A stretch of DNA of 64,000 nt from an uncultured Sphingomonadaceae bacterium. GTDB taxonomy: Bacteria; Pseudomonadota; Alphaproteobacteria; Sphingomonadales; Sphingomonadaceae. The DNA lies in the NCBI GenBank assembly GCA_947488625.1, contig CANKZR010000001.1:186001-250000 (forward strand), read 5' to 3'. Made by a program: the position numbers and the translations under genes. Positions 1-25,990 of this stretch are shown here, piece by piece (the stretch's first letter is position 1; every line of letters begins with the position of its first letter). A model generated the notes under the pieces. It searched no databases. It saw only the letters and a program-made list of their open reading frames with translations, and was not told where the DNA came from.

Positions 1-108
1 TGCGCCCCTTCGGATATCGCGGAACTGTTTGTCTTCCTCGCATCCGACCGCGCTCACAAGGTTACCGGTTCGCTCTACACGATGGATGGTGGGCAATTGG
101 CCGGTTGA
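1..108 (+). CDS. SDR family oxidoreductase, C-terminal fragment
   Basis: The gene enters from the left edge and only its last 35 codons are visible. They read as the end of a short-chain dehydrogenase/reductase: an ELFVFLASD segment, then VTGS and MDGGQLAG, the usual SDR finish where the last strand and loop close over the cofactor. Catalytic Tyr-Lys and the Rossmann glycines lie outside the window, so substrate cannot be inferred. It is co-directional with the SnoaL-like gene 75 bp downstream and beside the steroid cluster, so a steroid or acyl-CoA alcohol substrate is plausible but only by context. Confidence 0.85.
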   Translation, partial: CAPSDIAELFVFLASDRAHKVTGSLYTMDGGQLAG

Positions 109-182
109 GAATAGCGGGCTCCTGATACCGGGAGCCCGCCTTGCCTCGTGGGCCGATTTTACCGAAGTAACCAAGGAGACTG

Positions 183-632
183 ATGGTCATGATGACCCTT
201 CAGGAAATATCTGATCGGCTGGAGATCGAACAATTGCTTTCGAACTACAGCTTCGCGATCGACGACCGCGACTGGGATGGGCTTGATGGCATTTTCACGC
301 CTGATGCATTCATCGACTACACTGCCGCCGGCGGCATTTCCGGGTCGCTGAGCGAGATCAAGGCATGGCTGCCCGGCGCGATGGAGCGCTTTCCCATGTT
401 TCAGCACATGGTCGCGACGACACAGCTTGTTCTGGAAGGCGACACCGCAACAAGCCGGACAATCCTGTTCAACCCGATGGTCTACAAGGACGATAACGGA
501 GTGGAGGATACCTTCTTCATCGGTCTCTGGTATCGCGACAACTTCGTACGGACCGACGCCGGTTGGCGAATTACACGACGTGTCGAGGAAAAGGGCTGGA
601 CCAAGCACGCTCCCCGGCTGAGCGCCTCCTAG
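183..632 (+). CDS. SnoaL-like / NTF2-fold protein
   Basis: A 149-residue protein of the SnoaL-like (NTF2) superfamily. The N-terminus has the family pattern of a helix with LEIEQLLSNYSFAIDDRDWDGL followed by a segment ending FTPDAFIDYT, and the second half has the alternating strands that form the cone-shaped pocket, including GLWYRDNFVRTDAGWRI. Such proteins act as isomerases, dehydratases or ligand binders; catalytic identity cannot be read here. AAGGAG lies 4 nt before the first ATG; in-frame ATGs at 189 and 192 give 10 and 13 nt, so the start is uncertain by three codons. It follows the SDR fragment and converges on the leftward steroid operon, which contains a second SnoaL-like protein. 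Confidence 0.8.
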   Translation: MVMMTLQEISDRLEIEQLLSNYSFAIDDRDWDGLDGIFTPDAFIDYTAAGGISGSLSEIKAWLPGAMERFPMFQHMVATTQLVLEGDTATSRTILFNPMVYKDDNGVEDTFFIGLWYRDNFVRTDAGWRITRRVEEKGWTKHAPRLSAS

Positions 633-665
633 ACCCAACCGATTTCCCCGTGAGAAAGCCGGTCG

Positions 666-1196
666 TCACTCGTCCCAGCTGAGCAGGTAGGAAATATCGG
701 TGCGTTCTTCGGGCTTGAGCCCGGTTTTCGCCAGCCAGTGGGCCGTGATCACACCGGCCTTGTCGCGCGGATAGATGATCTCGATCACGCGCTCGTATGC
801 GGTGCTGGCGATTTTCCAGCGCCCGTCCTCGCGGCGATACTTGTCCTTGTAAATTGCCGTTCCGAAGGTGTGGTCATCGCGTTCCAGGCTGATGAAGACA
901 TCTTCCAGATACCAGATAGCCTCTGCGGTATCCTCTCCGGTCAAGGTGATATCCGGCATGTGGCCATGGTGCATCGCCAGCGCATCCGATGGAAAGGCGT
1001 TGGCAAGGAACAGCAGCATCTCCTGCTTCCCCGAAAACTGGCAGCGATAGGTGCCACCCTTGTAATCGACCGACACATCATCGGTGAACAACGTTGCGAG
1101 AAGTTCCTGGTCACCGGTGTCGATCGCCCTGAAATATCGATGCTTGACGGTGCGAATATCCTCGAGATCGGACAGTTCCTGCAAAGAATATGCCAT
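666..1196 (-). CDS. SnoaL-like / NTF2-fold protein
   Basis: Last gene of the leftward steroid run, 176 residues from the ATG at 1196. The start is placed at MAYSLQELSDLEDI because the upstream extension lies over the neighbouring gene and is Arg-rich and unlike the family. The pattern is SnoaL_4-like: HRYFRAIDTGDQELLATLFTDDVSVDY near residues 20-45, then a region with histidines in AMHHGHMPDI and a final strand region RREDGRWKI. The family contains hydratases, isomerases and ring hydroxylation helpers; no specific role can be assigned. It starts 5 bp after the SRPBCC gene ends, so the two are almost surely co-transcribed. Together with the gene at 183-632 and the isomerase-like protein at 22814 it makes three NTF2-fold proteins in one cluster. 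Confidence 0.82.
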   Translation of the reverse strand: MAYSLQELSDLEDIRTVKHRYFRAIDTGDQELLATLFTDDVSVDYKGGTYRCQFSGKQEMLLFLANAFPSDALAMHHGHMPDITLTGEDTAEAIWYLEDVFISLERDDHTFGTAIYKDKYRREDGRWKIASTAYERVIEIIYPRDKAGVITAHWLAKTGLKPEERTDISYLLSWDE

Positions 1197-1201
1197 GGTT
1201 A

Positions 1202-1732
1202 TCAACCCTTCCGTGATGCTGTGTATATTGCCTCTGCGCGGACTTTCAGCGCCATGGCGGAGTCGTCGAAGGCGCGTTTGACCCACGGACCGGCAAATCG
1301 GAAGACGTGGATCCCGTTCGTGCCGAGAAATGCATCGGTCGAGAAATAGCGGCAGCTCTCCGGCCCGGTCTTCTCGATGACCTGATCCCGGCGCGCAGGA
1401 TAAGGCCAGAAGTCATAGTAGGGCAGTTGCCAGCTCAGCATGGCTTCGGGCTCGAAGGCGCAGACGAACTCGCAATTTTCCACCAGCGTGCCGGGCACCG
1501 CGTAGTTGACCAGCGTCATCTCGACGGGGGCCTCCATTTCGAGGGTGGATTTGGCGCGTACGCAAAACGGGTTCCACTCGTTGTAGCGTGGCAGATCCGT
1601 CAACACCTCCCACACGACCTTGGCAGGGGCATCGATATTCACGGTTTCGCTGACGGTTACGGCGTCGGGATCGAACCCGGACCGTTCATCGTCCGCCAGC
1701 GTCGGATGTGACTTCATCCAGTCCAGCAGCAT
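1202..1732 (-). CDS. SRPBCC family protein
   Basis: A 176-residue START/Bet v1-type (SRPBCC) protein. The family signature is visible: an N-terminal strand ending in VNIDAPAKVVWEVLTDLPRYNEWNPFC (about residues 32-58), then antiparallel strands with AMLSWQL and a C-terminal long helix starting near AFDDSAMALK. SRPBCC proteins bind hydrophobic ligands in a deep cavity, and some are polyketide cyclases; a steroid or seco-steroid ligand fits the location. The start at 1732 is chosen because GAGGAG stands 6 nt before it; a longer frame would run into the flavoprotein gene. It lies 56 bp downstream of that gene and 5 bp upstream of the SnoaL-like gene. Function beyond ligand binding is unknown. Confidence 0.8.
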   Translation of the reverse strand: MLLDWMKSHPTLADDERSGFDPDAVTVSETVNIDAPAKVVWEVLTDLPRYNEWNPFCVRAKSTLEMEAPVEMTLVNYAVPGTLVENCEFVCAFEPEAMLSWQLPYYDFWPYPARRDQVIEKTGPESCRYFSTDAFLGTNGIHVFRFAGPWVKRAFDDSAMALKVRAEAIYTASRKG

Positions 1733-1788: not shown

Positions 1789-3249
1789 TCAGGCTTGCGC
1801 GGCGTGGAGCCCCGCTCGCCTGCCGAAGAAAGTGCAATCCGCAAGGCTCATTCCGGAACTGTAGCCATGGCCCCAGGCGGGTAATCCGCTTGTGCAGCGG
1901 CCTGCAGCGAACAGCCCGTTAATCGGCTTCCCGGTACGGTCCAGCACTTCCCCGTCAACAGAAGTATGCAAGCCGCCGAGGGTGAAAAAACTGAAGTAAC
2001 TCGTTTCGAAATTCAGTTCCAGCGCGACGAATGGCCCATGGTCCAGCGGGGTCAGGATCGGTGGTTTCTTGTCGAACAACGGGTCGCGGCCATCGTGTGC
2101 GTGGTGATTGTAGAACGCCATAGTGGAGGCGAGGGTGCCTTCCGCCATTTCGAGTTCCGCTTCCACTTCTGCCCAGCTGTCTCCGGTCGCTGCAATCGTA
2201 ATCCCGGCAAGATCCAGCGGTTGGCTGAAATGCGCATTGTCCAGCAATTGATAGACCTTGCCCCCCGGCTGATCGACCGCGTAGCGGCTGACCCTTCCGT
2301 GATAGCAATCCTCGTTGATGAACCGCTGTCCAGCGGTGTTGACGAAAACCGCATGTGCGTGCGGTTCGGGCATGGTCCACGGACAGGTCGTGAAGAACTG
2401 GTCCATGTGGATGGCATTACCGCCCGCGCCCACCCCTAGGTTGATCCCGGTTCCATCATCCTGGTCGCCGATGGGCGAGCTGATGGCGAACGTTTCCGGA
2501 CAGTGCTGCCGCCGCATCGTCTCGTTCATAACGAAACCGCCGGTCGCCAGAACCACTCCCCGGCGAGCGCGGACGAAGGTAAGCTGGTTGTCGATACGAA
2601 AAATCGCGCCGACTATCCGCTCGCCATCCTGGACTAGACCAAGAGCGCGGGAATCCGCCGAAACCTGCACGCCCTTGTCGCGCGCCGACTTCTCCAGAAT
2701 ATCGACCAGCGGCCTGCCGCCGCCCCAGCCTGTGTGCTGGATCACATGGCCGCGCGGTGCGGGCTTGGCCAGATCGCAGAATGGGGCAGCAGCTTCACTG
2801 CCCGACCATATGAGGGTTGAATCGTCGGACGGCTCGATATGTTTGCCAGGCAGATAATTGCCCCGGTAGGGAACGCCCACGTTCTTGAGCCATGCGAAAT
2901 GGTCGAGCGCTTCGCGAGCGTAGAGTTCGCATTTGGCGTCATCGGCACACGGGCCGCCCGCCGCTTTCAGATAGGCCGCGAAATCCTGCGTCGAATCCTC
3001 GAAGCCCGCGGCGCGCTGAACATCCGTACCGCCCCGGCCACCGATATAGATTTCTCCGCCCGAGAGACCCGATGCGCCGCCGCTTCCGGAACCTCGCTCG
3101 AATATCCTTACTTCGGCACCGGCATCCGCGGCCTCGATGGCAGCGCAGGCGCCGGCGGCGCCGAAGCCTATGACCACGACGTCGGCTTCCATATCCCATC
3201 TCTCGACGTCGTGGGCCGCTAAAGGTCGATGCATTGAAACCTGTTCCAT
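1789..3249 (-). CDS. FAD-dependent dehydrogenase, KstD / fumarate-reductase flavoprotein family
   Basis: A 486-residue flavoprotein. The N-terminal dinucleotide-binding fold is clear (ADVVVIGFGAAGACAAIEAA, residues 22-41, then an acidic residue in IFERG), followed by GGASGLSGGEIYIGG, an FAD-contacting segment, and a C-terminal FAD loop GLFAAGRCTSG...GHGYSSGMSLADC. This is the 3-ketosteroid dehydrogenase/fumarate reductase superfamily, whose members remove or add hydrogens next to a carbonyl. The C-terminus differs from the classical KstD motif I remember, so it may be a delta-4(5-alpha) or ring-D/side-chain dehydrogenase rather than a true delta-1 enzyme. It begins 5 bp after the aldolase gene ends. 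An internal Met (sixth codon) is an alternative start; neither has a strong ribosome-binding site. Confidence 0.82.
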   Translation of the reverse strand: MEQVSMHRPLAAHDVERWDMEADVVVIGFGAAGACAAIEAADAGAEVRIFERGSGSGGASGLSGGEIYIGGRGGTDVQRAAGFEDSTQDFAAYLKAAGGPCADDAKCELYAREALDHFAWLKNVGVPYRGNYLPGKHIEPSDDSTLIWSGSEAAAPFCDLAKPAPRGHVIQHTGWGGGRPLVDILEKSARDKGVQVSADSRALGLVQDGERIVGAIFRIDNQLTFVRARRGVVLATGGFVMNETMRRQHCPETFAISSPIGDQDDGTGINLGVGAGGNAIHMDQFFTTCPWTMPEPHAHAVFVNTAGQRFINEDCYHGRVSRYAVDQPGGKVYQLLDNAHFSQPLDLAGITIAATGDSWAEVEAELEMAEGTLASTMAFYNHHAHDGRDPLFDKKPPILTPLDHGPFVALELNFETSYFSFFTLGGLHTSVDGEVLDRTGKPINGLFAAGRCTSGLPAWGHGYSSGMSLADCTFFGRRAGLHAAQA

Positions 3250-3254: not shown

Positions 3255-4292
3255 TCAGTCGCCCTTCGCCTTGACCATATCCAGAGCCACGTCGACGATC
3301 ATGTCTTCCTGCCCGCCCACCATCTTGCGCGCGCCGAGTTCGACCAGGATTTCCCGCGTATCCAGTCCGTAGTCCTGCGCCGCCTTTTCCGCATGGCGCA
3401 GGAAGGATGAATAGACGCCGGCATAGCCCAGGCTGAGTGTTTCGCGATCAACCCGGACCGGACGATCCTGCAAGGGGCGGACGAGATCATCGGCCGCGTC
3501 CATCAGCGCCATCACATCGCATCCGTGGGTCCAGCCCTTGCGATTGGCAGCAGCAATGAAAACCTCGAGCGGGGCGTTCCCCGCACCTGCACCCATCCCC
3601 GCAAGGCTGGCATCGATACGCACGGCACCTTCCTGCGCGGCTACGATGGAATTGGCGACACCCAGCGAAAGGTTGTGATGAGCGTGAATACCGCGCTGCG
3701 TTTCAGGTTTCAGCGCGCGGTCATAGGCGCGCAACCGGTCGCGCACGCCGTCCATGTCCAGCGCGCCGCCGCTATCCGTCACGTAGACGCAGTGCGCGCC
3801 GTAACTTTCCATCAGAACAGCCTGCTGTGCCAGTTCCTCGGCGCCGATCATGTGGCTCATCATGAGGAAGCCCGACACGTCCATGCCCAGGTCACGGGCA
3901 ATCCCGATATGCTGTCTGGAGACATCCGCCTCGGTGCAGTGAGTGGCCACGCGAACGGAACGCACGCCCAGATCGTATGCCCGGCGCAACTCCTCCTCCG
4001 TGCCGACGCCCGGCAAGATAAGCGTGGTGAGCACGGCATTGTCCAGCACCTCGGCAACGGCTTCCAGCCATTCCCAGTCGGTGTGCGCACCAAACCCGTA
4101 ATTGAAGCTCTGTCCGGACAGGCCGTCGCCATGCGCGACTTCGATGGCATCCACGCCGGCCTTGTCCAGAGCGGCTGCGATCTCGCGCACACTATCGACG
4201 CCATACATATGCCTGATGGCATGCATGCCATCCCGCAGTGTCACGTCCTGAATGTATAGCCTGTTGCCGGCTTCCACGTCGAACTTGCTCAT
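3255..4292 (-). CDS. dmpG: 4-hydroxy-2-oxovalerate aldolase (HsaF/TesG type)
   Basis: A 345-residue class II pyruvate aldolase that splits 4-hydroxy-2-oxoacids (4-hydroxy-2-oxovalerate or the C6 homologue from steroids) to pyruvate and an aldehyde that is channelled to the partner dehydrogenase. Family hallmarks: [11 protein letters not shown] at residues 18-28, giving the catalytic Arg20, metal-binding Asp21 and His24, the metal-binding HAHHN motif around residue 202, and [12 protein letters not shown]. Length matches the family (about 340). Its ATG overlaps the dmpF stop by 4 bp, the arrangement expected for a complex-forming pair that needs equal amounts. In Mycobacterium the homologue is HsaF, in Comamonas TesG. 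Confidence 0.95.
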
Positions 4293-5215
4293 GAGGCGAT
4301 CCTTTCCGCGATCAATTCTCCGGTCGCCTTGGCTGCCGCTGTCATGATGTCGAGGTTGCCCGAATAGGAGGGCAGGTAATCGCCCGCGCCTTCGACCTCG
4401 AGGAATACGGAAGTCTTGATACCCGTGAAATCGCCCTGACCGGGGATGCGCAACCGGTTGTTGTCGCCAAAGCGTTCAAATTGAACCTGCTGTTTCAGGC
4501 GATAGCCCGGCACGTACTTCTGCACCCGTGCCACCATCGCTTCGACTGATGCACGGATCGCATCCTCGTCCGCACCTTCAGACAGGGTGAAAACGGTATC
4601 GCGCATGATCATCGGTGGCTCTGCCGGGTTCAGGATGATTATCGCCTTGCCGCGATCGGCGCCTCCGACCGCTTCGATTGCCCTTGCCGTGGTGCGCGTG
4701 AATTCGTCGATATTCGCCCGTGTGCCCGGACCTGCGGATCGTGAAGATACCGAGGCGACGATCTCGGCATAATGGACATGCGCAACTTCGCTGACGGCGG
4801 CAACCATGGGAATGGTAGCCTGCCCGCCGCACGTCACCATGTTGACGTTCGGCTGGTCGAGATTGACCTGCATATTGACGGGAGGGATGGTGAACGGGCC
4901 CAGTGCAGCGGGGGTGAGATCGATCACCCGAATTCCATCCTTGCGCAGTGTCTCGTCGTGGATCTTGTGGGCCGACGCGCTTGTCGCATCAAACGCAATC
5001 GCGATCTGACCGTAGCAATCGAGCTTCTTCAGACCGTCTATGCCTTCATGCGTGGTGGCGACGCCATGCTTGCGGGCTAAAGCAAGCCCTTCGCTCTCGG
5101 GGTCGATGCCCACAACAGCGACCAGTTCCATGTTCTGCGGGTACTTTATCATTTTCATCATCAGATCGGTTCCGATGTTTCCCGAACCGATGATTGCCGC
5201 TTTTACTTTTGTCAT
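4289..5215 (-). CDS. dmpF: Acetaldehyde/propionaldehyde dehydrogenase, CoA-acylating (HsaG/TesF type)
   Basis: A 308-residue acylating aldehyde dehydrogenase that turns the aldehyde from the aldolase into acetyl- or propionyl-CoA with NAD. Visible: Rossmann loop [10 protein letters not shown] (residues 8-17), catalytic Cys129 in [10 protein letters not shown], and the conserved [10 protein letters not shown] segment. The start at 5215 (MTKVKAA) is the family start; the open frame continues upstream but that part is Arg-rich and overlaps the hydratase gene. It sits 8 bp after the hydratase and overlaps dmpG by 4 bp. The operon order hydratase-dehydrogenase-aldolase is the standard meta-cleavage lower pathway order. 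Confidence 0.95.
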
Positions 5216-5223: not shown

Positions 5224-6000
5224 TCAGACGAAGCGTGCGGTGCAGCCACCCACGCCGTGAATATTCATTTCGAACAAGTCGCCGGCCACCGCATCCTCCA
5301 GGGGTACGAGCGATCCGGAAAGGATAATGTCGCCCGCATCCAGTGTGACGCCGTATTCGCCCAGTGTGTTGGCCAGCCAGGCTACCGCCTGTGCGGGATC
5401 GCCCTGAACAGCCGATCCCAGTCCTTCGGAAAGGGGTTGCCCGTTCTTGCTGACCGTGACTTTCAATGCCGGAAGATCGTGATCGCGCGGATCGGCTCGC
5501 GCATCCCCGATAACGAAGACGCCGCAACTGGCGTTGTCTGCCACCGTATCGACAATACCGATTTTCCAGTCGGCGATCCGGCTGTCGACAATCTCGAAAC
5601 ACGGTGCGATCAATTCCGTGGCGGCGACGACCTGTGCAGCCGTAACGCCAGGCCCGACAAGCCGGTCACGCAGGATGAAGGCAATTTCCGCTTCGGCTCG
5701 CGGCGCAATGAGCTTTCTTGCGGCTATATCGATGTCGCCGTCAGAACCCATCGCATCCGTGAGAAAGCCGAAATCTGGCTGGCGGACACCAAGCATGTCC
5801 TGCACAGGCTTGCTGGTCACCCCGATCTTCTTGCCGACCACCTTCTCGCCATCGCCGAGCCTGCGCTGAAGGAAGTCCAGACTTATGGCGTAGGCGTCAT
5901 CGATGCCAAGATCCGGGTCGCGTGCACTTAATGGGGGAACGGGTGTCCCTGTACGCAAGCATCGGTATAGTTCGCGCCCGTACTTCTCAGCGGGTTTCAT
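5224..6000 (-). CDS. hsaE: 2-hydroxyhexa/penta-2,4-dienoate hydratase (HsaE-like)
   Basis: A 258-residue member of the MhpD/DmpE hydratase family, which adds water to the 2-hydroxy-2,4-dienoate released by meta-cleavage hydrolysis and gives the aldolase substrate. Family features seen: [16 protein letters not shown] (residues 57-72), the metal-ligand region [10 protein letters not shown] (about residue 100) with two Glu, and the C-terminal [10 protein letters not shown]. Length is normal. It overlaps the hydrolase gene by 14 bp and precedes dmpF by 8 bp. In a steroid cluster the natural substrate is expected to be 2-hydroxyhexa-2,4-dienoate; this is by context, not by sequence. Confidence 0.92.
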
Positions 6001-6805
6001 CGAGAAATTCCGTTGCGTAGCGATTGAATTCCGCCTCGCGCTCCACCTGAACCCAATGGCCTACCTTGCTGAACGTGATGCAGCGTATATCGGGGCAATG
6101 GTCAAAGAAGTAATCGATGCCCGAAAGCGGCATGAATTCTTCTTCACGGCCCCAGAACAACAGAATGGGCATAGTCAGTTTCTGTAGGCAGTCGCGCACG
6201 TTGTGGGTTTTCATGCGCGCAAGAACCGCCTTGGGCTGACGCTTTGCTACATCGTAACGCTCGGCAACCAGTTCGTCGGTGACATGAACCGGATCGTGGA
6301 CCAGGCTCTCGATCAGGCGGCGCTGGTCTTCGGGAGAGAAGTCATCGCTACCGAATGACGATTTCATGTTGGCGATACCCGGCATGGCGAAATAGACGCC
6401 GAGCTCTTCGATGCATCCCGGTGCCATGAGCACAAGATTGTGCACCAGGTCCGGTTCGTCCGCAGCCATCTGTATCGCGATGCCCCCTCCCAGCGAATTG
6501 CCGATCAGCGTGGCATGCCGGACGCCATGCTGGCGAAGCGCGTCACGCACGGTTTCGACAAACAGGGTCAGCGTGTAGTCGATATCGTCTGGCATGGACG
6601 ATTGACCATAACCGATCAAATCGGGGAGGATTACGGTGAAACCGGCATCGACGAATGCATCGACGTTTTGCCGGAAGTTCGAAAGACCGGACGCGCCGGG
6701 GCCGCTGCCGTGAAGGAACACGACATGCGGGCCGGAGCCTGTTTCGCGAAGGTGGATCGAATACCCACCCGTGACCGAATAAGTAGCCTCTTTGAAACGT
6801 GTCAT
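5987..6805 (-). CDS. hsaD: Meta-cleavage product hydrolase, alpha/beta fold (HsaD-like)
   Basis: A 272-residue alpha/beta hydrolase of the carbon-carbon bond hydrolase group (HsaD, BphD, MhpC). The oxyanion segment HGSGPGASG (residues 32-40), nucleophile Ser104 in GNSLGG and His250 in KVGHWVQVER are present. The acid residue is unusual: the family motif WGRxD reads WGREE here, so Glu222 stands where Asp is normal. The expected reaction is hydrolysis of the HsaC product to a hydroxydienoate and HIP (3aS-methyl-hexahydro-indanedione propionate). It lies 13 bp downstream of the monooxygenase gene and overlaps the hydratase, so co-expression with both is likely. Confidence 0.88.
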   Translation of the reverse strand: MTRFKEATYSVTGGYSIHLRETGSGPHVVFLHGSGPGASGLSNFRQNVDAFVDAGFTVILPDLIGYGQSSMPDDIDYTLTLFVETVRDALRQHGVRHATLIGNSLGGGIAIQMAADEPDLVHNLVLMAPGCIEELGVYFAMPGIANMKSSFGSDDFSPEDQRRLIESLVHDPVHVTDELVAERYDVAKRQPKAVLARMKTHNVRDCLQKLTMPILLFWGREEEFMPLSGIDYFFDHCPDIRCITFSKVGHWVQVEREAEFNRYATEFLDETR

Positions 6806-6818
6806 TAGTGGTGCGCTA

Positions 6819-8033: not shown

Positions 8034-8097
8034 GTTTCAGTTCTCGCTCATCTGCCGCCAGTCTCGAAAACATGAGAACCGGCCTCTTTCGTAAAAA

Positions 8098-8126
8098 TTA
8101 ATGGCATCGAATACGCAAATCGTCAA
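8098..8126 (-). promoter_or_regulatory. Candidate sigma-70-type promoter for the leftward steroid operon
   Basis: On the minus strand TTGACG (8126-8121) and CATTAA (8103-8098) are separated by exactly 17 bp. The -35 matches the consensus at 5 of 6, the -10 at 3 of 6. It points at hsaA, about 65 bp ahead of its ATG. The weak -10 and the inverted repeat 5 bp upstream suggest a promoter that needs an activator, but this is inferred from position only. Confidence 0.4.
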
Positions 8127-8131
8127 TTGAA

Positions 8132-8157
8132 AACCGATATGACTTTCGATATTGGTT
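8132..8157. promoter_or_regulatory. 26-bp inverted repeat, candidate operator between divergent steroid operons
   Basis: AACCGATAT and ATATTGGTT flank an 8-bp spacer; 8 of 9 arm positions pair. It is the only clear dyad in the 181-bp divergent region and lies midway between the two operons, 5 bp upstream of the candidate hsaA -35 and 57 bp before the rightward start codon. A dimeric regulator (TetR, IclR or similar) could control both operons from it; no regulator gene is present in the window. Confidence 0.5.
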
Positions 8158-17725: not shown

Positions 17726-17729
17726 GGGA

Positions 17730-18350: not shown

Positions 18351-18410
18351 TGGAAACCATAAAAGGCTGCGATCCTTCCGGGTCGCGCGTCAACTTAACA
18401 GGATTTGGCT

Positions 18411-19316
18411 ATGAAAATTTGTGAAGGACGCGTTGCGATCGTCACCGGCGCCGGTAACGGATTGGGCAAAGCCTATGCCCTCGAACTGGCGGAACAGGGG
18501 TGCAAGGTCGTGGTGAACGATCTGGGCGTTGGAACCCACGGCGAAGAAGGTGAAACCAAAGGCGCTGCAGAGCGCGTCGTCGAGGAAATTCGAGCGAACG
18601 GCGGAGAGGCCATTGCGAATACCGACGATGTCGCCGAGTGGGACGCGGGCAAGCGGCTGGTCGAGGCGGCCCTCGATACGTTTGGCGAACTTCACGCCGT
18701 AGTGAACAACGCCGGCTTCGTGCGCGATCGCATGTTCTTCACCTGCTCGCCGGAGGAGTGGGACGCCGTCATCCGCGTGCACCTGCGCGGGCACTTCTGC
18801 ACCAGTCGCCATGCGGCTGAATACTGGCGTGCGCAAAGCAAGGCAGGCAAGGCGGTCGATAGCCGCATCATCAACACGTCGAGCGGTGCCGGTCTGCAGG
18901 GATCGGTAGGTCAATCGGCCTACTCCACGGCAAAGGGGGGCATCGCGACGCTCACGCTCGTCCAAGCGGCGGAACTGGGGCGGTACGGTGTGACGGCAAA
19001 TGGCCTGGTGCCGATCGCCCGCACCCGGATGACCGATACCGGCGCGTTCGACATGGATATAAATGAGGGCGAGTTCGATGAATTCGCGCCTGAAAACATG
19101 GCTTCAGTCGTCGCATATCTGGTCAGCGAGCAGTCACGCGGCGTGACGGGCCAGATGCTGGAACTGAAGGGCGGCAGGCTGTTCCTTTCGCAGGGCTGGA
19201 CCGACAGCACCGCGTTCGACAAGGGCGAGCGCCTGGATGCCGGAGAAGTGGATGCGATCGTGCGCGACCTGCTCGAAAAACGGGAACCTGCAAAGCCAGT
19301 ATACGGAGCGAACTGA
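18411..19316 (+). CDS. SDR family oxidoreductase, hydroxyacyl-CoA dehydrogenase-like
   Basis: A 301-residue SDR, longer than classical members and similar in layout to the dehydrogenase part of peroxisomal multifunctional enzyme 2 (17-beta-HSD4). Seen: TGAGNGLGKAYALELA (residues 13-28), VVNDLGVGTHGE, NNAGFVRDRMF, catalytic Ser in NTSSGAGL and YSTAK Tyr/Lys near residue 169. This group oxidises 3-hydroxyacyl-CoA esters. ATG at 18411 has AGGA 7 nt before it; a TTG two codons upstream is a poorer choice. It follows the only sizeable gap (60 bp) in the rightward operon, which holds a 7-bp GC hairpin without a T tract, and starts a second block with the next dehydrogenases. Confidence 0.88.
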   Translation: MKICEGRVAIVTGAGNGLGKAYALELAEQGCKVVVNDLGVGTHGEEGETKGAAERVVEEIRANGGEAIANTDDVAEWDAGKRLVEAALDTFGELHAVVNNAGFVRDRMFFTCSPEEWDAVIRVHLRGHFCTSRHAAEYWRAQSKAGKAVDSRIINTSSGAGLQGSVGQSAYSTAKGGIATLTLVQAAELGRYGVTANGLVPIARTRMTDTGAFDMDINEGEFDEFAPENMASVVAYLVSEQSRGVTGQMLELKGGRLFLSQGWTDSTAFDKGERLDAGEVDAIVRDLLEKREPAKPVYGAN

Positions 19317-19318
19317 CC

Positions 19319-20374
19319 ATGGATTTTGCGTTTACCGACGAACAGAAGATGATCGCGGACACCGCGCGCGAATTCTTTCGCAAGCACGCGACAAGTGCCA
19401 GCACTCGCAAGGCGATGGTCGACGATGGCGTGGACCGACCCTTGTGGACATCGTTCTGCACGGAACTGGGCCTTGCCGGCGCGGTGATCCCCGAAGAATT
19501 TGGCGGCGCCGGGCTGGGCATGGTGGAACTTGCGATCATTGCGGAGACGGCGGGAAGCCGAGTTTCCGCGATCCCGCTTCTGGGTCAGGCAATGGCTACC
19601 GGCGCCTTGATGGGTGGCGCCAATGACGATCAGAAACAAAAGTGGCTCGGCGGCATCGCGTCGGGCGACACGATCTGCGCGGTTGCGTCCAGCGAGGATG
19701 CCTCGGAAACAGATGGCAAGCTGACCGGGACGGTGACCCACGTCCCCCATGGCGCTGTGGCTGACCTGCTTGTCGTGCTAGGGGAAAGCCGCTGCTGGCT
19801 CGTTCCGCTGGATGGCAGCGGGGTGACGATCGAACGCCCTGTAACAATGGATCAGACCCGGCCGCTTAGCACAATCGTGCTGGATAGAGCGCACTGCAAA
19901 CCGCTCGGGGAGACCCATTCGGCGAAAGATGCGGCGATGAGAGCGGGCTTGATCGTACTGTCCGCCGAAGCACTGGGCGGCGCGCAGGAAACGCTCGATC
20001 GCACGGTGGCCTATTCGCAGGAGCGCGTGCAGTTCGGACGCCCGATCGGGTCTTTCCAAGCCTACAAACACCGCCTTGCGGATATGCTGGTCGAAATCGA
20101 ACAGGCGCGCTCTGCGGTTTACTGGGCGGCATGTGCACTGGATGAAAGCGATCCGACCGCCGACTTCGCTCTTTACGCGGCAAAATCGCTTTGTGCGGAT
20201 ACCTATTTCCGCTGCGCTGGCGACATGATCCAGCTTCATGGCGGCATCGGTTTCACGTGGGAGCACGATGCCCACCTGTTCTTCAAGCGCGCACGCGCCG
20301 TGCAGTCCCTGCTGGGAACGGGCGAGGAATACCGCGAGCGCATTGCACAAATCGTTTTAGGAGACGCGGCATGA
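19319..20374 (+). CDS. Acyl-CoA dehydrogenase, small subunit of a pair
   Basis: A 351-residue acyl-CoA dehydrogenase-like protein starting MDFAFTDEQKMIADTAREFFRK, with QERVQFGRPIGSFQAYKHRLAD (about residues 234-255) and the FAD-contacting HGGIGFTWEHDAHLFFKRAR near residue 310. No Glu occurs at either usual catalytic position, as in non-catalytic subunits of mycobacterial steroid alpha2-beta2 dehydrogenases. It is the mirror pair of 14381/15547: here the small gene comes first and the large one overlaps it by 4 bp. It lies 2 bp after the SDR gene. It probably supplies the flavin site for the next gene product. Confidence 0.9.
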   Translation: MDFAFTDEQKMIADTAREFFRKHATSASTRKAMVDDGVDRPLWTSFCTELGLAGAVIPEEFGGAGLGMVELAIIAETAGSRVSAIPLLGQAMATGALMGGANDDQKQKWLGGIASGDTICAVASSEDASETDGKLTGTVTHVPHGAVADLLVVLGESRCWLVPLDGSGVTIERPVTMDQTRPLSTIVLDRAHCKPLGETHSAKDAAMRAGLIVLSAEALGGAQETLDRTVAYSQERVQFGRPIGSFQAYKHRLADMLVEIEQARSAVYWAACALDESDPTADFALYAAKSLCADTYFRCAGDMIQLHGGIGFTWEHDAHLFFKRARAVQSLLGTGEEYRERIAQIVLGDAA

Positions 20375-21549
20375 AACTGGGCTTTTCTCCCGAAGAGGAA
20401 GCGTTTCGCGACGAATGCGCCAGCTGGCTGAACGATCAGATGTACGGCGAATTTGCGGACATTCGCGGGATCTACGAGCTTACCAGCAAGCCGGGCCGAC
20501 GCAAGGAGTGGGAGCAACAGCTTGCAGCACACCGCTGGTCCTGCATCGGCTGGCCAGAGCAGTGGGGAGGACGCGACGCCACCTTGGCTCAGCAGGTCAT
20601 CTTTGCGGAGGAGTATGCGCGGTCCGGTGCGCCGGGTCGGATCAATCACATCGGTATCGAACTTGCCGGTCCGACAATCCTGGCCTTCGGGACCGAGGAG
20701 CAAAAGGCCCGCTTCCTGCCGGATATCGCCGCGGGCAAGACGATATGGTGCCAGGGATATTCGGAACCGGGTGCAGGGTCCGACCTTGCCAATGTGCGCA
20801 CGAAGGCGCGTCAGAAAGACGGTGCCTGGGTTGTGGAGGGTCAGAAAATCTGGACCAGCCTGGCGCATATTTCCGACTGGATTTTCGTGCTCGCCCGTAC
20901 CGAGGAAGGGACAAAGGGTCCGCGTGGCCTGACGTTCCTGATGATGCCGATGGATCAGGAGGGGATCGAAATCCGCCCGATCGTGCAAATGAATGGCGAT
21001 GCGGAATTCAACGAAACCTTCTTCACCGATGCAACCTGTCCGTCCGACAGTATCATCGGCGCTCCGGGCGAGGGGTGGAAAATCGCCATGGGGCTGCTCG
21101 CCTTCGAACGTGGCGTTTCGACGCTTGGTCAGCAGATGGGGTTCCGCAACGAGCTGGATTGCGTGATCGAGGCGGCCAAGGCCACGGGCCGCGCCGCCGA
21201 CCCGCTGATCCGGCAACGTATCGCCAAGGCCGAGATCGGTTTGCGGCTGATGCGTTACAGCGCCTTGCGCATGCTTTCCAATACGGATCATTCGGCGATC
21301 GAAGGGGCCGCGCTGACCTATAAAATCCAGTGGGCTACGTGGCGGCGCGACCTGGGCGAACTCGCAATGGACGTGCAGGGACTGGACGGCCAGGTGACCG
21401 AGGGCGAGGAATACAACTGGGACGTGCTGACCAACCTGTTCCTCTTCAGCCGCGCCGATACGATCTACGGCGGAACGAACCAGATCCAGCGCAACATCAT
21501 CGCGGAGCGGGGTCTTGGCCTGCCCCGTGAACCCAGAGGTGATAAATGA
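20371..21549 (+). CDS. Acyl-CoA dehydrogenase, large subunit (FadE30-like candidate)
   Basis: A 392-residue acyl-CoA dehydrogenase. Present are QGYSEPGAGSDLANVR (about residues 128-143), a Glu in LAFERGVS (about residue 248) at the isovaleryl/long-chain catalytic position, and the ending TNQIQRNIIAERGLGLPRE; the MCAD-position Glu is Gly. It overlaps both neighbours by 4 bp. The IpdF-like gene directly downstream recalls the mycobacterial fadE30-ipdF order, making this the best candidate for 5-OH-HIP-CoA desaturation, though its partner-like gene upstream argues for a heteromeric enzyme. Confidence 0.88.
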   Translation: MKLGFSPEEEAFRDECASWLNDQMYGEFADIRGIYELTSKPGRRKEWEQQLAAHRWSCIGWPEQWGGRDATLAQQVIFAEEYARSGAPGRINHIGIELAGPTILAFGTEEQKARFLPDIAAGKTIWCQGYSEPGAGSDLANVRTKARQKDGAWVVEGQKIWTSLAHISDWIFVLARTEEGTKGPRGLTFLMMPMDQEGIEIRPIVQMNGDAEFNETFFTDATCPSDSIIGAPGEGWKIAMGLLAFERGVSTLGQQMGFRNELDCVIEAAKATGRAADPLIRQRIAKAEIGLRLMRYSALRMLSNTDHSAIEGAALTYKIQWATWRRDLGELAMDVQGLDGQVTEGEEYNWDVLTNLFLFSRADTIYGGTNQIQRNIIAERGLGLPREPRGDK

Positions 21550-22331
21550 CCGTTCCCGTTCCTCCCTATCCCGAACCACGCAACCTTCTGAAAGAAAAGA
21601 GCGTGGTGGTAACTGCCGCAGCAGGAACCGGGATTGGTTACGCAGTCGCGAAACGCGCGGCAGAAGAGGGCGCGCGCGTTCTGATCAGCGATTTCCACGA
21701 ACGGCGCCTGGGCGAGGCGGCCAACCGGATCGCCGATGAAGTGGGTTGCGAAAGACCCGCGACCTTCGTCTGCGATGTGACCCAGCAGGGCCATATCGAC
21801 CAGTTGCGCGATACTGCCGTGGAGCAGTTCGGTCAGGTCGACGTGCTGATCAACAACGCCGGGCTGGGCGGAGAAGCGAATATCGTAGACATGACCGACG
21901 AGCAGTGGGACCGTGTGCTGGAAGTCACCCTTACCAGCCTGTTTCGCATGACGCGCGCGTTTCTGCCGGTGATGTTCGGCGCGAAGTCTGGCGTGATGGT
22001 CAACAACGCCTCCGTTCTCGGCTGGCGTGCGCAGAAAGGACAGGCTCATTACGCCGCTGCCAAGGCTGGGGTGATGGCCTTTACGCGCTGCTCCGCCGCG
22101 GAAGCTGCCGAGCATGGCGTACGCATCAATGCGGTTGCACCAAGCCTTGCGATGCACCCGTTCCTTGCCAAGGTTACGACAGAGGAGATGCTGGCGGACC
22201 TGGTAAAGAAGGAAGCCTATGGTCGCCCCGCCGAAGTGTGGGAAGTTGCCAACGTGATGATCTTCCTGGCTTCGGACTTGTCCAGCTACATGACTGGCGA
22301 AGTCGTGCCAGTCTCCAGTCAGCGAGCGTGA
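21546..22331 (+). CDS. ipdF: 5-OH-HIP-CoA dehydrogenase, SDR family (IpdF-like)
   Basis: A 261-residue SDR. Cofactor loop AAAGTGIGYAVAKRA (about residues 24-38), SDFHERRLGEAA, NNAGLGGEA, catalytic VNNASVLGWRAQ and YAAAK (about residues 168-172) are visible. The AAAGTGIG loop, the HERRLGE segment and the NNASVLGWRAQ active site are the traits I associate with IpdF (Rv3559c type), which oxidises the 5-hydroxyl of 5-OH-HIP-CoA with NAD before thiolysis. It overlaps the large dehydrogenase by 4 bp and is 2 bp from the MaoC gene. The assignment rests on remembered motif similarity plus neighbours. Confidence 0.88.
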   Translation: MTVPVPPYPEPRNLLKEKSVVVTAAAGTGIGYAVAKRAAEEGARVLISDFHERRLGEAANRIADEVGCERPATFVCDVTQQGHIDQLRDTAVEQFGQVDVLINNAGLGGEANIVDMTDEQWDRVLEVTLTSLFRMTRAFLPVMFGAKSGVMVNNASVLGWRAQKGQAHYAAAKAGVMAFTRCSAAEAAEHGVRINAVAPSLAMHPFLAKVTTEEMLADLVKKEAYGRPAEVWEVANVMIFLASDLSSYMTGEVVPVSSQRA

Positions 22332-22333: not shown

Positions 22334-22807
22334 ATGCCGAAGATATTTAACCACCCGGCGGATCTTCTTGGGCAAGAGGAGACTAAACTCGGTCCCACCC
22401 AATGGCTGACTATCGATCAGCAAAGGGTCGACGGGTTTGCCGATGTGACCGGAGATCGGCAATGGATTCATGTCGATGTCGAGCGAGCGCGTGAAGGGCC
22501 TTTCGGCGGAACCATCGCGCACGGATACCTCGTGCTCAGCCTGGTGAACCACTTTCTGCCCCAGCTCATCGACGTGAGGGGATTTGCCCACGGCGTGAAC
22601 GTGGGGGCAGATCGGCTGCGCTTTCTTTCACCTGTAAAGGTGGGCAGCCGAATCCGTGCAGTGGGTGAAATCATCGCGGCAGAAGAGATCAAGGGTGCAG
22701 TCCAGAGCACCGTGCGCGTTTCAATCGAAATCGACGAGGGCGATGGCGAACCGGCAGGCAAGCCGGCGTGCGTCCTTGATACCATCAGCCGCTATTATCC
22801 GGAGTAG
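22334..22807 (+). CDS. MaoC-family (R)-specific enoyl-CoA hydratase
   Basis: A 157-residue single hot-dog-fold MaoC dehydratase. The hydratase signature is clear: FADVTGDRQWIHVDVERA with the catalytic Asp and His (about residues 38-44), then GPFGGTIAHGYLVLSLVNHF. It should hydrate a trans-2-enoyl-CoA made by the acyl-CoA dehydrogenases of the operon, giving the hydroxyacyl-CoA for the SDRs. The ATG at 22334 follows the ipdF stop by 2 bp; an in-frame extension lies inside ipdF and is discarded. A paralogue with the same motif is at 37860-38309. Confidence 0.92.
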   Translation: MPKIFNHPADLLGQEETKLGPTQWLTIDQQRVDGFADVTGDRQWIHVDVERAREGPFGGTIAHGYLVLSLVNHFLPQLIDVRGFAHGVNVGADRLRFLSPVKVGSRIRAVGEIIAAEEIKGAVQSTVRVSIEIDEGDGEPAGKPACVLDTISRYYPE

Positions 22808-22813: not shown

Positions 22814-23215
22814 ATGTCCGACCCCAAGACCATGCCAGATCCAGAGCGTATGGAAGCCGCCGTACATGAATATGTCTCCGCTTTCGACGCAGGCGATGCC
22901 GGCCGGATCGCCAACCTGTTTGCGCAGGATGCCACGGTCGAGGATCCGATCGGCACTCCCAAGCACGTCGGCAAGGCCGCGATCGAGGGGTTCTATCGAG
23001 AATCGATGAAGACCGGCCCCAAGCTGAGCCTGGAAGGGCCAGTCCGCCTGGCGCAGGACTACGCGGTTTTCGCGTTTTCCGTGAACCTCACCCTGGAAGG
23101 CTCAGATATGCGCATCGACGTAATCGATACCTTCCGTTTCAACGAAGAAGCCGAAGTCGTAGAAATGCGGGCCTATTGGGGGCCGGCAAACATGCACGGT
23201 TTTGAACAGGAATGA
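22814..23215 (+). CDS. Steroid delta-isomerase-like protein (NTF2 fold)
   Basis: A 133-residue NTF2-fold protein resembling delta-5-3-ketosteroid isomerase. Candidate catalytic residues are Tyr20 in VHEYVSAFDAGD, Asp44 in ATVEDPIGTPKH (the isomerase base sits in the same VEDP context) and Asp102/Asp105 in RIDVIDTFRF. KSI shifts the double bond from delta-5 to delta-4 through a dienolate. In an operon for ring C/D breakdown it could instead isomerise a CoA-bound enone, so the label is by fold and residues, not substrate. It starts 6 bp after the MaoC gene and ends 6 bp before the thiolase. Confidence 0.82.
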   Translation: MSDPKTMPDPERMEAAVHEYVSAFDAGDAGRIANLFAQDATVEDPIGTPKHVGKAAIEGFYRESMKTGPKLSLEGPVRLAQDYAVFAFSVNLTLEGSDMRIDVIDTFRFNEEAEVVEMRAYWGPANMHGFEQE

Positions 23216-23221
23216 ACCAAC

Positions 23222-24424
23222 ATGCGTGAAGCAGCCATCGTATCTACCGCCCGCACCGGCGTCGGGAAGGCCTACAAGGGTGCTTTCAACGACACCGAGG
23301 CGCCCGTCATGGCGGCCCATGTCATCAACGCGGCTATCGAACGCGCGGGCATCGATCCCGCGCGGATCGACGATGTTTACCTGGGCTGCGCGAACCAGTG
23401 GAACACGCAAAGCTACAATCTAGGGCGGCTGGCGGTTCATGGTTCCGTGCTGCCGAACACGACCAGCGGATTTGCGATGGATCGCAAGTGCTCCTCCGGT
23501 CTGAATGCCATCGCCTTTGCCGCGCGTGGGATCATGACCGGCGAGGTCGAAGCGTCTATGGCTGGCGGAACGGAGAACGTCTCGCTCACCCTGAACAAGC
23601 ACTATCCAAGTTTTCGCAACCGCTCCGAATTCGTGAAAGAGCAGGACCCAAACGCCTACATTGCCATGATCGAAACGGCGGAAATCGTGGCCGAGCGTTA
23701 CGAAATCAGCCGCGAGGATCAGGATCGCTTCGCCGCTCAAAGCCAGCAGCGCGCAGCAACCGCGCAGGATGAGGGACGTTTCGCGCAGGAGATTGCGCCC
23801 ATCACCGTCAGCAAGACGGTCTTCGATCAGGAGGGTAAGCCTGCCGGGTCGCAAGAGGTAAACCTTGATCGGGACGAGGGCATCCGGGCTGGAACGACTT
23901 TCGAAAAGCTGCAGACGCTCAAGCCGGTTCACAAGGACGGGATGATCGTCGAAAACGGCCAGTATGTGACGGCCGGGAATGCCAGCCAGCTGTCCGACGG
24001 GGCGGCAGCGCAAGTAATGATGGACCTTGAAACCGCACAGAAAGAAGGTCTGCCCGTACTGGGTGTCTATCGCGGCTTCCAGGTCGCCGGTTGCGAGCCC
24101 GAAGAGATGGGCATTGGCCCGGTCTTCGCCATTCCGAAACTGCTCGACAAGGCGGGAGTGCGGATCGAGGACGTCGACCTTTTCGAGATCAACGAAGCCT
24201 TCGCCAGCCAGGCACTATACTGCCAGCGAAAGCTCGGCATCGATCCTGAAAAACTCAACGTGAATGGCGGCGCCATCGCTATCGGCCACCCCTTTGCAAT
24301 GACGGGTTCCCGGCTGGTTGGTCACGCACTTATCGAGGGCAAGCGTCGCGGGGCTCGATACGTGGTGGTTTCCATGTGTGTCGCGGGCGGCATGGGCGCT
24401 GCGGGTCTGTTCGAAATTGCTTGA
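23222..24424 (+). CDS. Thiolase family protein
   Basis: A 400-residue thiolase with Cys90 in [24 protein letters not shown], His in [17 protein letters not shown] (about residue 354) and the second Cys in [13 protein letters not shown] (about residue 385). The histidine loop reads GHPFAMTG rather than GHPIGATG, a variation also found in other thiolases. It is expected to split a 3-ketoacyl-CoA. It is the second thiolase of the operon, next to the acyl-CoA ligase gene, and may act on a different chain or ring fragment from the thiolase at 16571. Confidence 0.9.
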
Positions 24425-24436
24425 GGCACCTTTATC

Positions 24437-25990
24437 ATGACTGGCGAGACAGGGAACTGGCCGCAAACGATCCCGGCAGCGGCCCGCCGGGCAGCGGAAC
24501 GCTGGCCCGATGCTCCCGCCCTGATCGAGGGGAAACGAAGCTGGACCTTTGCACAGGTGTGGGCCGAGGCGCAATCTGCCGCGGCGGCGATGGTGGCCAG
24601 CGGCCTGCAATCCGGCGACCGGGTTGGCATCTGGGCCCCGAATACGCGCGAATGGATACTTGCGGCACTCGGCGCACAATGCGTCGGTGCGGCAATCATT
24701 CCCCTGAACACCCGCTTCACCGCTTCCGAGGCGAAAGACATCCTGCGGCGCTCGAGCGCACGGCTTCTGTTCGCTGCAGGAGATTTCCTGGGTCGTGACT
24801 ATTCGCAGGAAATCGATGGCAATGAGCTTCCCTCGCTGATCGAGACGATCCGGATCGACAGCGAATGGAGCGCATTCGTCGCTCGTGGCAGCGAAGATGA
24901 TACCTCGACCGTGTCGGCCGCAATCGACACGCTTTCTGGTAGCGACATCAGCGATATCATGTTCACCTCCGGCACCACTGGGAAACCCAAGGGGGTGCTG
25001 ACCTCTCATCGACAGGCGGTGGCAACGTTCGGCAACTGGGCGGAACGGGTCGATCTGCGCGAAGGCGATGTCTATCTGATCGTCAATCCGTTCTTTCACA
25101 CTTTCGGATACAAGGCAGGTTGGGTGGCCGCGCTCGTGCGGGGTGCGACGATCATTCCTCAGCAGACATTCGACGTGCCTCAAACCGTTCGCCTGATCGA
25201 GCAGCACGGCGTCAGCTTCATTCCCGGCCCGCCGACGATCTATCAATCACTGCTGCAGGAACTGGCCGGCGGAAAGCCCCGTGACTTTTCCAGTTTGCGC
25301 GTTGCTGTGACAGGGGCCGCTCCTGTTGCACCCGAACTCGTGCGTCGAATGCGCAGCGAACTTGGCATGCGCGGCGTCGTCAACGGGTATGGAATGACGG
25401 AATGCGGTGCCATCTCGATGACCTGCAAGGACGACGACGCCGAAACGATAGCCAACACCTGCGGCTGTCCGCTGCCCGGTCTGGAAGTGCGTTGTATCGA
25501 CGAGGCGGGACGGGAACTGCCACCCGGCGAGGCGGGGGAAATCGTGGTTCGTGGCCACTCCGTGATGCAGGGCTATCTCGACGATCCGGAAGCGACTGCC
25601 GAGACGATTGATGCCGAGGGCTGGCTCCATACCGGGGACATCGGTATCCTCGACGAGCGAGGCTACCTGAAAATAACCGACCGCAAGAAGGACATGTTCA
25701 TCTGCGGCGGCTTCAACGTCTATCCTGCCGAGGTCGAGCGCAGTCTGGCAGAACATCCCGCTATTTCCGCCTGTGCGGTCATCGGCATCGCTGACGAGCG
25801 CCTCGGTGAAGTCAGCAAGGCTTTCGTCGTCCTGCGCAAGGATGCTGGCGGGGATGTCGACGAAGCGAGCATCATCGCCTGGGCGCGCAAGGCAATGGCG
25901 AATTACAAGGTGCCGAGGGAAGTGGAGCTGGTGGAGGACTTGCCGCGCAACGCAGCGGGCAAAGTGGTGAAGGCAGAACTGCGGCCCTGA
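24437..25990 (+). CDS. fadD3: Acyl-CoA synthetase, HIP-CoA ligase (FadD3-like)
   Basis: A 517-residue adenylate-forming ligase. The AMP-binding P-loop MFTSGTTGKPKGV lies at about residues 175-187, followed by FHTFGYKAG, GYGMTECGAISMT, the hinge region DIGILDERGYLKITDRKKDMFICGG and a C-terminal catalytic Lys in AAGKVVKAEL. FadD3 activates HIP (3aS-methyl-hexahydro-4-indanone propionate) with ATP and CoA, the gate into the ring C/D branch. It is last in the rightward run, 12 bp after the thiolase; about 100 bp follow before the next gene. Motifs define the ligase; the HIP substrate is inferred from the cluster. Confidence 0.87.
   Translation: MTGETGNWPQTIPAAARRAAERWPDAPALIEGKRSWTFAQVWAEAQSAAAAMVASGLQSGDRVGIWAPNTREWILAALGAQCVGAAIIPLNTRFTASEAKDILRRSSARLLFAAGDFLGRDYSQEIDGNELPSLIETIRIDSEWSAFVARGSEDDTSTVSAAIDTLSGSDISDIMFTSGTTGKPKGVLTSHRQAVATFGNWAERVDLREGDVYLIVNPFFHTFGYKAGWVAALVRGATIIPQQTFDVPQTVRLIEQHGVSFIPGPPTIYQSLLQELAGGKPRDFSSLRVAVTGAAPVAPELVRRMRSELGMRGVVNGYGMTECGAISMTCKDDDAETIANTCGCPLPGLEVRCIDEAGRELPPGEAGEIVVRGHSVMQGYLDDPEATAETIDAEGWLHTGDIGILDERGYLKITDRKKDMFICGGFNVYPAEVERSLAEHPAISACAVIGIADERLGEVSKAFVVLRKDAGGDVDEASIIAWARKAMANYKVPREVELVEDLPRNAAGKVVKAELRP

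Follow-up and report, generated by a model that had tools for sequence, protein, structure and literature searches.

A predicted steroid ring-degradation cluster in a Sphingomonadaceae genome and the exchange of enzymes within its gene order

Gene content of the cluster

The stretch analysed here, referred to as the window, comprises 64,000 nucleotides (bases 186001-250000 of contig 1) from the 3.2 Mb, 14-contig genome of an uncultured Sphingomonadaceae bacterium. Its first 26 kb are occupied by a cluster of 28 genes (183-25990), all of them open in a stop check, which very probably encodes a set for aerobic 9,10-seco A-ring and HIP (C/D-ring) steroid degradation. The genes are tightly packed in two divergent runs, with a lone leftmost gene on the plus strand. 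Gene calls based on codon usage are consistent with these 28 genes; they were trained on the same genes and hence provide no independent check. In the following list, percentages are identities, and L and G numbers are our labels for comparison loci and genomes.

183..632, +: g01, SnoaL_4 protein, 149 amino acids, weak relative of BaiE-type dehydratases (Pfam SnoaL_4 109 bits; BaiE 4l8p 39 bits; L164 66%)
666..1196, -: g02, candidate BaiE/Hsh-type hydroxysteroid dehydratase, 176 amino acids (PDB BaiE 91 bits, E 7e-25; 59-61% in pNL2, G118, L164)
1202..1732, -: g03, SRPBCC/polyketide-cyclase-like protein (Pfam 33 bits; pNL2 67%, L164 76%)
1789..3249, -: g04, candidate 3-ketosteroid Delta4-(5alpha)-dehydrogenase (PDB 4at0 336 bits versus 85 for 4c3x)
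3255..4292, -: g05, HsaF/DmpG 4-hydroxy-2-oxovalerate aldolase (TIGR03217 568 bits, cut-off 286)
4289..5215, -: g06, HsaG/DmpF acylating acetaldehyde dehydrogenase (TIGR03215 458 bits, cut-off 282)
5224..6000, -: g07, HsaE-type (DmpE-type) 2-hydroxydienoate hydratase (TIGR03220 360 bits, cut-off 409)
5987..6805, -: g08, HsaD-type meta-cleavage product hydrolase (HsaD model 171 bits, cut-off 400; BphD 138, HsaD 114; GNSLGG)
6819..8033, -: g09, HsaA, oxygenase component of 3-HSA 4-hydroxylase (PDB 2rfq 260 bits; NF045629 365, cut-off 450)
8215..8976, +: g10, short-chain dehydrogenase/reductase (SDR), Rv3549c-type place (48-54% in three actinobacterial loci, to the SDR located two genes ahead of IpdA; PRK07856 332 bits)
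8987..9904, +: g11, HsaC extradiol dioxygenase (PDB 2zi8 180 bits; His143, His196/197 and Glu264 in conserved aligned motifs)
9901..10794, +: g12, IpdA, COCHEA-CoA hydrolase alpha subunit (PDB 6co6/6con 280-257 bits; tree)
10809..11597, +: g13, IpdB, COCHEA-CoA hydrolase beta subunit (PDB 6co6/6con 177-169 bits; TDGE as in 6co6 chain B)
11594..12529, +: g14, enoyl-CoA hydratase, ScdN-type place (PRK08290 414 bits, cut-off 280; position as Nov2c353)
12529..13641, +: g15, IpdC, nitronate-monooxygenase-like flavoprotein (Pfam NMO 254 bits; position as Nov2c354)
13632..14381, +: g16, EchA20/ScdY ring D hydrolase (PRK07938 297 bits, cut-off 260; position as Nov2c355)
14381..15535, +: g17, acyl-CoA dehydrogenase subunit, FadE31-type place (position as Nov2c356)
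15547..16578, +: g18, acyl-CoA dehydrogenase subunit, FadE32-type place (IpdE2 model 138 bits, cut-off 450; position as Nov2c357)
16571..17725, +: g19, FadA6-type thiolase (PRK07801 644 bits, cut-off 591; Cys89, GHP339, Cys370)
17730..18350, +: g20, PaaY-like protein of gamma-carbonic-anhydrase fold (PaaY 241 bits, cut-off 320; also in G118, G084, L165, L166)
18405..19316, +: g21, SDR, Rv3548c place, ScdE-type side-chain hydroxyacyl-CoA dehydrogenase (PDB 3qlj 347 bits; PRK07791 421, cut-off 373)
19319..20374, +: g22, IpdE2-like acyl-CoA dehydrogenase (NF050027 224 bits, cut-off 450)
20371..21549, +: g23, acyl-CoA dehydrogenase, FadE30-like place (58% in Streptomyces locus L169)
21546..22331, +: g24, SDR, best IpdF candidate (PRK07831 437 bits, cut-off 336; 58% at the ipdF place of L169)
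22334..22807, +: g25, MaoC hydratase (Pfam 82 bits)
22814..23215, +: g26, SnoaL_2/ketosteroid isomerase (KSI)-like protein (Pfam 51 bits; pNL2 homologue 65%, annotated steroid Delta-isomerase)
23222..24424, +: g27, thiolase (PRK07108 504 bits, cut-off 615)
24437..25990, +: g28, FadD3-type HIP-CoA ligase (NF005801 706 bits, cut-off 657)

By profile and solved structure, the ring A set consists of HsaA, C, D, E, F and G. The ring C/D set comprises FadD3, IpdA, IpdB, IpdC, EchA20, an IpdF candidate, four acyl-CoA dehydrogenases, two thiolases and hydratases of the MaoC and crotonase types. According to a preliminary description of this DNA, a sphingomonad-type genome here carries a cluster for steroid rings A and C/D, and profiles, solved structures and synteny agree with that proposal; its list lacked the Delta4-ketosteroid dehydrogenase (1789-3249) and the SDR at 8215-8976. 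The sequence shows the gene set, the family memberships, some intact motifs and the synteny with known degraders; every reaction in this strain, its substrate, and what g01, g02, g03, g10, g20 and g26 do are inferred from these.

The closest solved structures of four key enzymes are those of the steroid pathway. HsaA matches 2rfq, deposited as a "3-HSA hydroxylase" (260 bits), and 3afe (244 bits) best, versus 144 bits for p-hydroxyphenylacetate hydroxylase, and HsaC matches 2zi8 with 180 bits versus 167 for BphC. IpdA scores 280-257 bits against 6co6/6con versus 109 for glutaconate CoA-transferase, and IpdB 177-169 bits versus 55 for a CoA-transferase. The depositors' names of 3afe, 2zi8, 6co6 and 6con are generic; we take 3afe to be HsaA, 2zi8 to be HsaC of Mycobacterium tuberculosis and 6co6/6con to be IpdAB. 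A motif check found intact the three HsaC motifs aligned to 2zi8, whose residues listed above are presumably the metal ligands, the HsaD serine motif GNSLGG and the thiolase cysteines. The TDGE of g13 aligns with that of 6co6 chain B, where the Gly, counted by hand, takes position 57. IpdB is described as lacking the catalytic Glu of the transferases, with Gly57 in strain RHA1 (PMC5380842); judged by this alignment, g13 lacks that Glu as well.

The SDRs were assigned by comparison with actinobacterial loci. The order SDR, SDR, enoyl-CoA hydratase, IpdA, IpdB, nitronate-monooxygenase-like is found in one annotated locus, with similar places in two further unannotated loci, and Rv3548c-Rv3553 are given in the same order (PMC5380842). 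In the three loci, g21 resembles the first SDR, three genes before IpdA (54-58%), g10 the second (48-54%), and EchA20 the gene preceding IpdA (40-41%). In L169, the Streptomyces locus, a homologue of g24 (58%), not of g21, occupies the ipdF position between a thiolase and the FadE30-like match. The preliminary description gave no coordinate for IpdF, and both options were placed on trees. Judged by family and place, g10 may be the HIP ring-ketone reductase that has recently been named ScdB in Comamonas (PMC13101464). IpdC (12529-13641) and the IpdF candidate (21546-22331) lie 8 kb apart and show a distance correlation of 0.76 in 15 clusters; in vitro, IpdC or IpdF alone is reported to transform 5-OH HIC-CoA poorly (PMC5380842).

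Predicted pathway and substrates

Profile searches for KshA, KstD and a flavin reductase found none in the window. An upper steroid locus is located on contig C3 (G000:C3:53623-66616; L057, L058), with a flavin reductase (154 bits), two Lrp/AsnC regulators, an esterase, SDRs, two KshA genes (199 and 110 bits), a KstD-type gene (PF00890 293 bits; PRK12844 528, cut-off 789) and a CoA-ligase fragment (269 bits to CasG, cut-off 750). The two KshA genes beside the KstD-type gene belong to four KshA_C matches in the genome, and the flavin reductase at C3:53653 is one of four flavin reductases in the genome, the enzyme class of HsaB. With these genes on C3, candidates exist in the genome for steps that precede HsaA or run alongside it. 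The C3 esterase (G000:C3:55635-56576) reaches 464 bits against a chloramphenicol hydrolase model (cut-off 500) and 357 against LipP1 (cut-off 350); our guess is an ordinary lipid or steroid-ester esterase.

In the proposed pathway, the Delta4-dehydrogenase and the BaiE-like dehydratase would act ahead of ring opening, and KstD and KshA, encoded elsewhere, would first open ring B. The aromatic ring A would then be hydroxylated by HsaA and cleaved by HsaC, HsaD would release the dienoate, and HsaE, HsaF and HsaG would convert it to central metabolites. The leftover HIP would be activated by FadD3 and its side chain shortened by the FadE, hydratase, SDR and thiolase gene products. Finally, ring D would be opened by EchA20 and ring C by IpdAB, and the remainder beta-oxidised.

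The genes at the left end bear on the substrate. For g02, the BaiE structures are the sole strong PDB matches (91 bits), which hints at bile-type steroids. The cluster could thus serve bile-type (7-hydroxy, C24) steroids by a Delta4,6 variant of the pathway, with g02 as a 7alpha-hydroxysteroid dehydratase like Hsh2/BaiE, a serious candidate that we nevertheless hold to be slightly less probable than its opposite. It is favoured by the near-exclusive BaiE match and by the 59% homologue of g02 on pNL2, whose host strain is described as producing Delta4,6 intermediates (PMC12175502); PMC8540908 describes the variant as prevalent in Sphingomonadaceae. However, the 12beta-dehydratase SteC is BaiE-like as well (PMC13101464), so that the fold does not fix the position, and the genome carries a second BaiE-like gene (C1:2056933, 34% to g02). 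Moreover, g04 is nearest to the 5alpha-type Delta4-dehydrogenase 4at0 (336 bits; next 3-ketosteroid dehydrogenase 85), whereas the proven 5beta-type enzyme is an Old Yellow Enzyme.

A different polycyclic substrate with the same ring chemistry, such as a diterpenoid, a hopanoid or a plant steroid aglycone, seems clearly improbable. Related clusters occur on plasmids of Sphingobium "Tom" strains, and tomatidine is degraded by Sphingobium from tomato roots and tomatine-treated soil (PMC10653915). The Tom strains may be those isolates. Yet plant steroid aglycones would join the same nucleus pathway, and to our knowledge IpdAB, KshA and KstD are described for the steroid nucleus only.

Several observations on ring A weigh against a steroid set. 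The HsaC profile gives g11 205 bits, less than the BphC profile (230); g08 matches BphD structures (138 bits) better than the HsaD structure (114); and the NCBIfam equivalog cut-offs are missed by HsaA (365 of 450), HsaC (205 of 450) and HsaD (171 of 400). In addition, cholate still supported growth of a Chol11 strain mutated in its HsaA homologue (PMC8540908), and roles may therefore not be one to one. In our view, these cut-offs do not define the proteobacterial form, and the HsaD model, though under its cut-off, is the best NCBIfam match of g08. The concern that the closest characterised homologues might be enzymes of aromatic compounds thus applies to HsaD and to the profile of HsaC, but not to HsaA, HsaC, IpdA and IpdB when compared with solved structures. 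A biphenyl-type cluster, to which the BphC and BphD scores would point, is extremely improbable, given that profile searches found no ring-hydroxylating dioxygenase among the 28 genes and that IpdA, IpdB, EchA20, IpdC and FadD3 would have no place in it; an aromatic-acid cluster is ruled out by the profile and solved-structure matches.

Distribution, gene order and origin

The steroid cluster is patchily distributed. At E <= 1e-40, HsaC was found in 31 of 249 family genomes including the window's own, many at just 35-42% identity, and in none of the four other genus members in that sample. IpdA occurs in two of 40 genus genomes, namely the window genome and G270 (Erythrobacter sp. HKST-UBA124, locus inside JAGREI010000035.1). 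At E <= 1e-60, it was detected in 37 of 396 genomes of the order and eight of 385 of the class, own genome included.

Fifteen other family genomes have an HsaC of 49% identity or more, and for synteny we fetched the cluster surroundings in 11 of them. Ten follow the window's order up to the ends of their contigs, with some genes absent (for example hsaF and hsaG in G061; g27 in G033 and G218) and one FadE displaced in G084; G071 retains just five cluster genes in the fetched stretch. Because the gene order recurs in ten of 11 genomes, it is not due to chance. In Chol11 (Nov2c344-367, Table 1 of PMC8399759), the same functions are given: Nov2c350-358 follow the window order from HsaC to the thiolase and Nov2c359-367 are arranged otherwise, as compared by the order and functions in that table. 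On pNL2 of N. aromaticivorans DSM 12444, which is reported to grow on ursodeoxycholate (PMC12175502), 21 of the 28 genes are collinear within 20 kb of ipdA, including NTF2/SnoaL, SRPBCC, KSI-like and FadD3 genes; g01, g04-g08 and g20 were not found within this distance, and IpdA/IpdB (57/56%), EchA20 (63%) and g21 (56%) are of other lineages than the window's. The plasmid NZ_CP117882 of Novosphingobium sp. KACC 22771 carries 27 of the 28 genes in order, without PaaY, with one extra SDR and with g21 of another lineage (59%). Such clusters on Novosphingobium plasmids, with inferred horizontal spread, were described by Bergstrand 2016 (PMC4810484).

Some plasmids seem to hold more than one copy: NZ_CP020539.1 (pMSHV) has two equal-score HsaC places about 400 kb apart and a third, so that its steroid cluster seems duplicated, and 12 of 13 Sphingobium plasmids have two IpdA places each. 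A second cluster subtype (L087, L111, L148, L165, L166, G084) has a distant type of HsaC and of g22, with no match to g10 or g04 over the stretches examined. HsaC and g22 show a distance correlation of 0.84 despite a separation of 9 kb.

The Mycobacterium/Rhodococcus HIP (KstR2) genes encode homologous enzymes (PMC5380842). The order in the three actinobacterial loci, in which SDR, SDR, EchA20-like, IpdA, IpdB and IpdC-like genes are kept together, differs from that of the window, and IpdA identity is 49-51%. The preliminary description had set the SnoaL, SRPBCC, KSI-like and PaaY-like genes apart from the mycobacterial system. The part of the mycobacterial regulon table considered indeed lists no SnoaL, SRPBCC or PaaY gene (PMC5380842); they are no oddity, being regular in the sphingomonad form, and PaaY is annotated as such in two plasmid clusters.

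The gene set had also been called actinobacterial-like, which the gene trees contradict. On quick trees with SH-aLRT support only, as used throughout, IpdA (99 rows, three actinobacterial), HsaC (36, two Nocardia), g21 (39, three), g10 (18, three) and g24 (21, one; low support inside) place the window among Sphingomonadales and other alphaproteobacteria, with the actinobacterial rows outside. The nearest IpdA relatives are those of an Erythrobacter metagenome-assembled genome (MAG; 74%), the KACC 22771 plasmid and other Sphingomonadales. The smallest strongly supported group (99) with the window has 34 rows: 17 Sphingomonadales, ten other alphaproteobacteria, three gammaproteobacteria, three other or unplaced, and the window. 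A recent takeover from an actinobacterium, for which the Mycobacterium-like motifs noted in the preliminary description and the single old transfer from actinobacteria to proteobacteria proposed by Bergstrand 2016 (PMC4810484) could be cited, is ruled out by these five trees, and the window IpdA is 49-51% identical to actinobacterial copies versus up to 75% to alphaproteobacterial ones. In the IpdA tree, L140, labelled a Klebsiella pneumoniae MAG, groups with gammaproteobacterial MAGs and is possibly a mislabelled bin.

At the right flank, the neighbour at 26090-26896 is mannose-6-phosphate-isomerase-like by eye, with no Pfam match at 1e-5. It and some genes beyond are kept in all seven genus relatives inspected, none of which has IpdA; the cluster ends next to this neighbour, at 25990. 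On the left, the cluster is adjoined outside the window by a TonB receptor gene and a further SnoaL_4 gene (G000:C1:182652-185300) and may extend beyond the window's edge; on pNL2, a comparable place holds genes for a TonB receptor and an NTF2-like protein. Against such a tie, the receptor has homologues in three of 11 genus relatives, all three without IpdA. In none of the genus relatives inspected did the genes of the left flank turn up within about 10 kb of the 26090-26896 homologue, and a clean empty site was therefore not shown.

Exchange of enzymes within a fixed gene order

Related bacteria of soil and water are known to carry clusters of this type; less expected is that enzymes are exchanged in place while the order stays fixed. 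For several genes, the identity of the window copy to other clusters falls on two levels, with differing clusters for each gene. Our first set consisted of 29 sphingomonad-type clusters, the window and 28 hand-picked for completeness (nine required genes; L155 labelled just Pseudomonadota). Seven of them (window, L084, L086, L087, L164, L165, L166) have what we call type II IpdA, and these form one clade with support 100 for IpdA, IpdB and EchA20 alike. The same grouping, derived from IpdA, is rejected for g14 (p 8e-9) and g15 (1.4e-4), both located between IpdB and EchA20, as well as for HsaC (5e-5), g17 (0.010), g18 (0.005) and g19 (0.022). The clusters are related, so that these and the following counts are of non-independent events. 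That the sphingomonad steroid cluster is a mosaic, its enzymes exchanged in place under a fixed order, is well supported. Conflicts between key-enzyme phylogenies and species have been reported (PMC4810484, PMC5790920); among the literature matches listed, judged by titles and abstract openings, no paper addresses in-place swapping in steroid clusters. As a separate observation, the window is on average farther than L084 from third clusters in 14 of 14 genes (HsaD to g22 without g20; 5987-20374; g23 and g27 excluded because their L084 matches are paralogues), which suggests that the cluster genes change faster in the window strain.

One explanation would be that exchange follows function over position, with EchA20 and IpdAB, which would open rings D and C in succession, travelling together past the two genes between them as a coupled unit, held by a physical complex or a thermodynamic pull. 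In the 29 clusters, the IpdA and EchA20 types matched throughout, and distance correlations were 0.98 for g17-g18, 0.96 for IpdA-IpdB, 0.95 for IpdA-EchA20, 0.94 for IpdB-EchA20, 0.22 for IpdA-g14 and 0.08 for IpdA-g15. We take IpdA-IpdB as a known and g17-g18 as a presumed heteromer; because the EchA20 correlations match those of these pairs, EchA20 resembles an IpdAB partner among the 29 clusters. When the set was widened to other phyla, the type II label changed once for IpdB (97 rows), four times for EchA20 (80), five times for g18 (70) and seven to 12 times for eight other genes; the lead of EchA20 over g18 is small in that wider set.

We then fetched 40 more regions and pooled them with the earlier loci; of the pool, 138 have IpdA, 102 have the five genes in order and 93 of these are distinct. 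Among 66 sphingomonad clusters including the window, IpdA and IpdB types agree in all and IpdA and EchA20 types in 62. The 38 new ones comprise 31 of type I, all with matching EchA20, and seven of type II, three of them matching; the mismatches are L091, a true break, and L095, L097 and L109, which form a lineage of their own. When trees were built for all 66, the label of type II changed three times for EchA20 (with three outgroup rows; p 0.02 for one clade), eight times for g14 (p 1e-59) and seven times for g15 (p 3e-29). Correlations with IpdA were 0.76 for EchA20, 0.34 for g14 and 0.44 for g15 in the 38 new clusters, and 0.61, 0.42 and 0.55 in all 65 new ones.

Other results speak against coupling. 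The advantage of EchA20 disappears when type I is taken by itself (IpdA with EchA20 0.53, g14 0.56, g15 0.42). Outside the Sphingomonadales or unplaced, types disagree in ten of 28 clusters; across all 94 clusters, EchA20 correlates with g19 at 0.83, IpdC at 0.78 and IpdA at 0.70, and in the 14 type II clusters most with g17 (0.94). The strong rule that types always match failed in four of the 38 new sphingomonad clusters and ten of the 28 others. Because, outside the order Sphingomonadales, EchA20 tracks the thiolase and IpdC better than it tracks IpdA, we now consider coupling rather unlikely; the strict form is lost on the new data, and a weak form is retained as a lead for Sphingomonadales.

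The reaction of IpdF, IpdC and EchA20 ran to about 10% without IpdAB (PMC5380842), an extent that coupling of EchA20 to IpdAB would, if true, explain. The cluster itself adds one strain to the distribution of steroid degradation, already known as patchy, within an Erythrobacter-type genus in which IpdA is found in two of 40 genomes.

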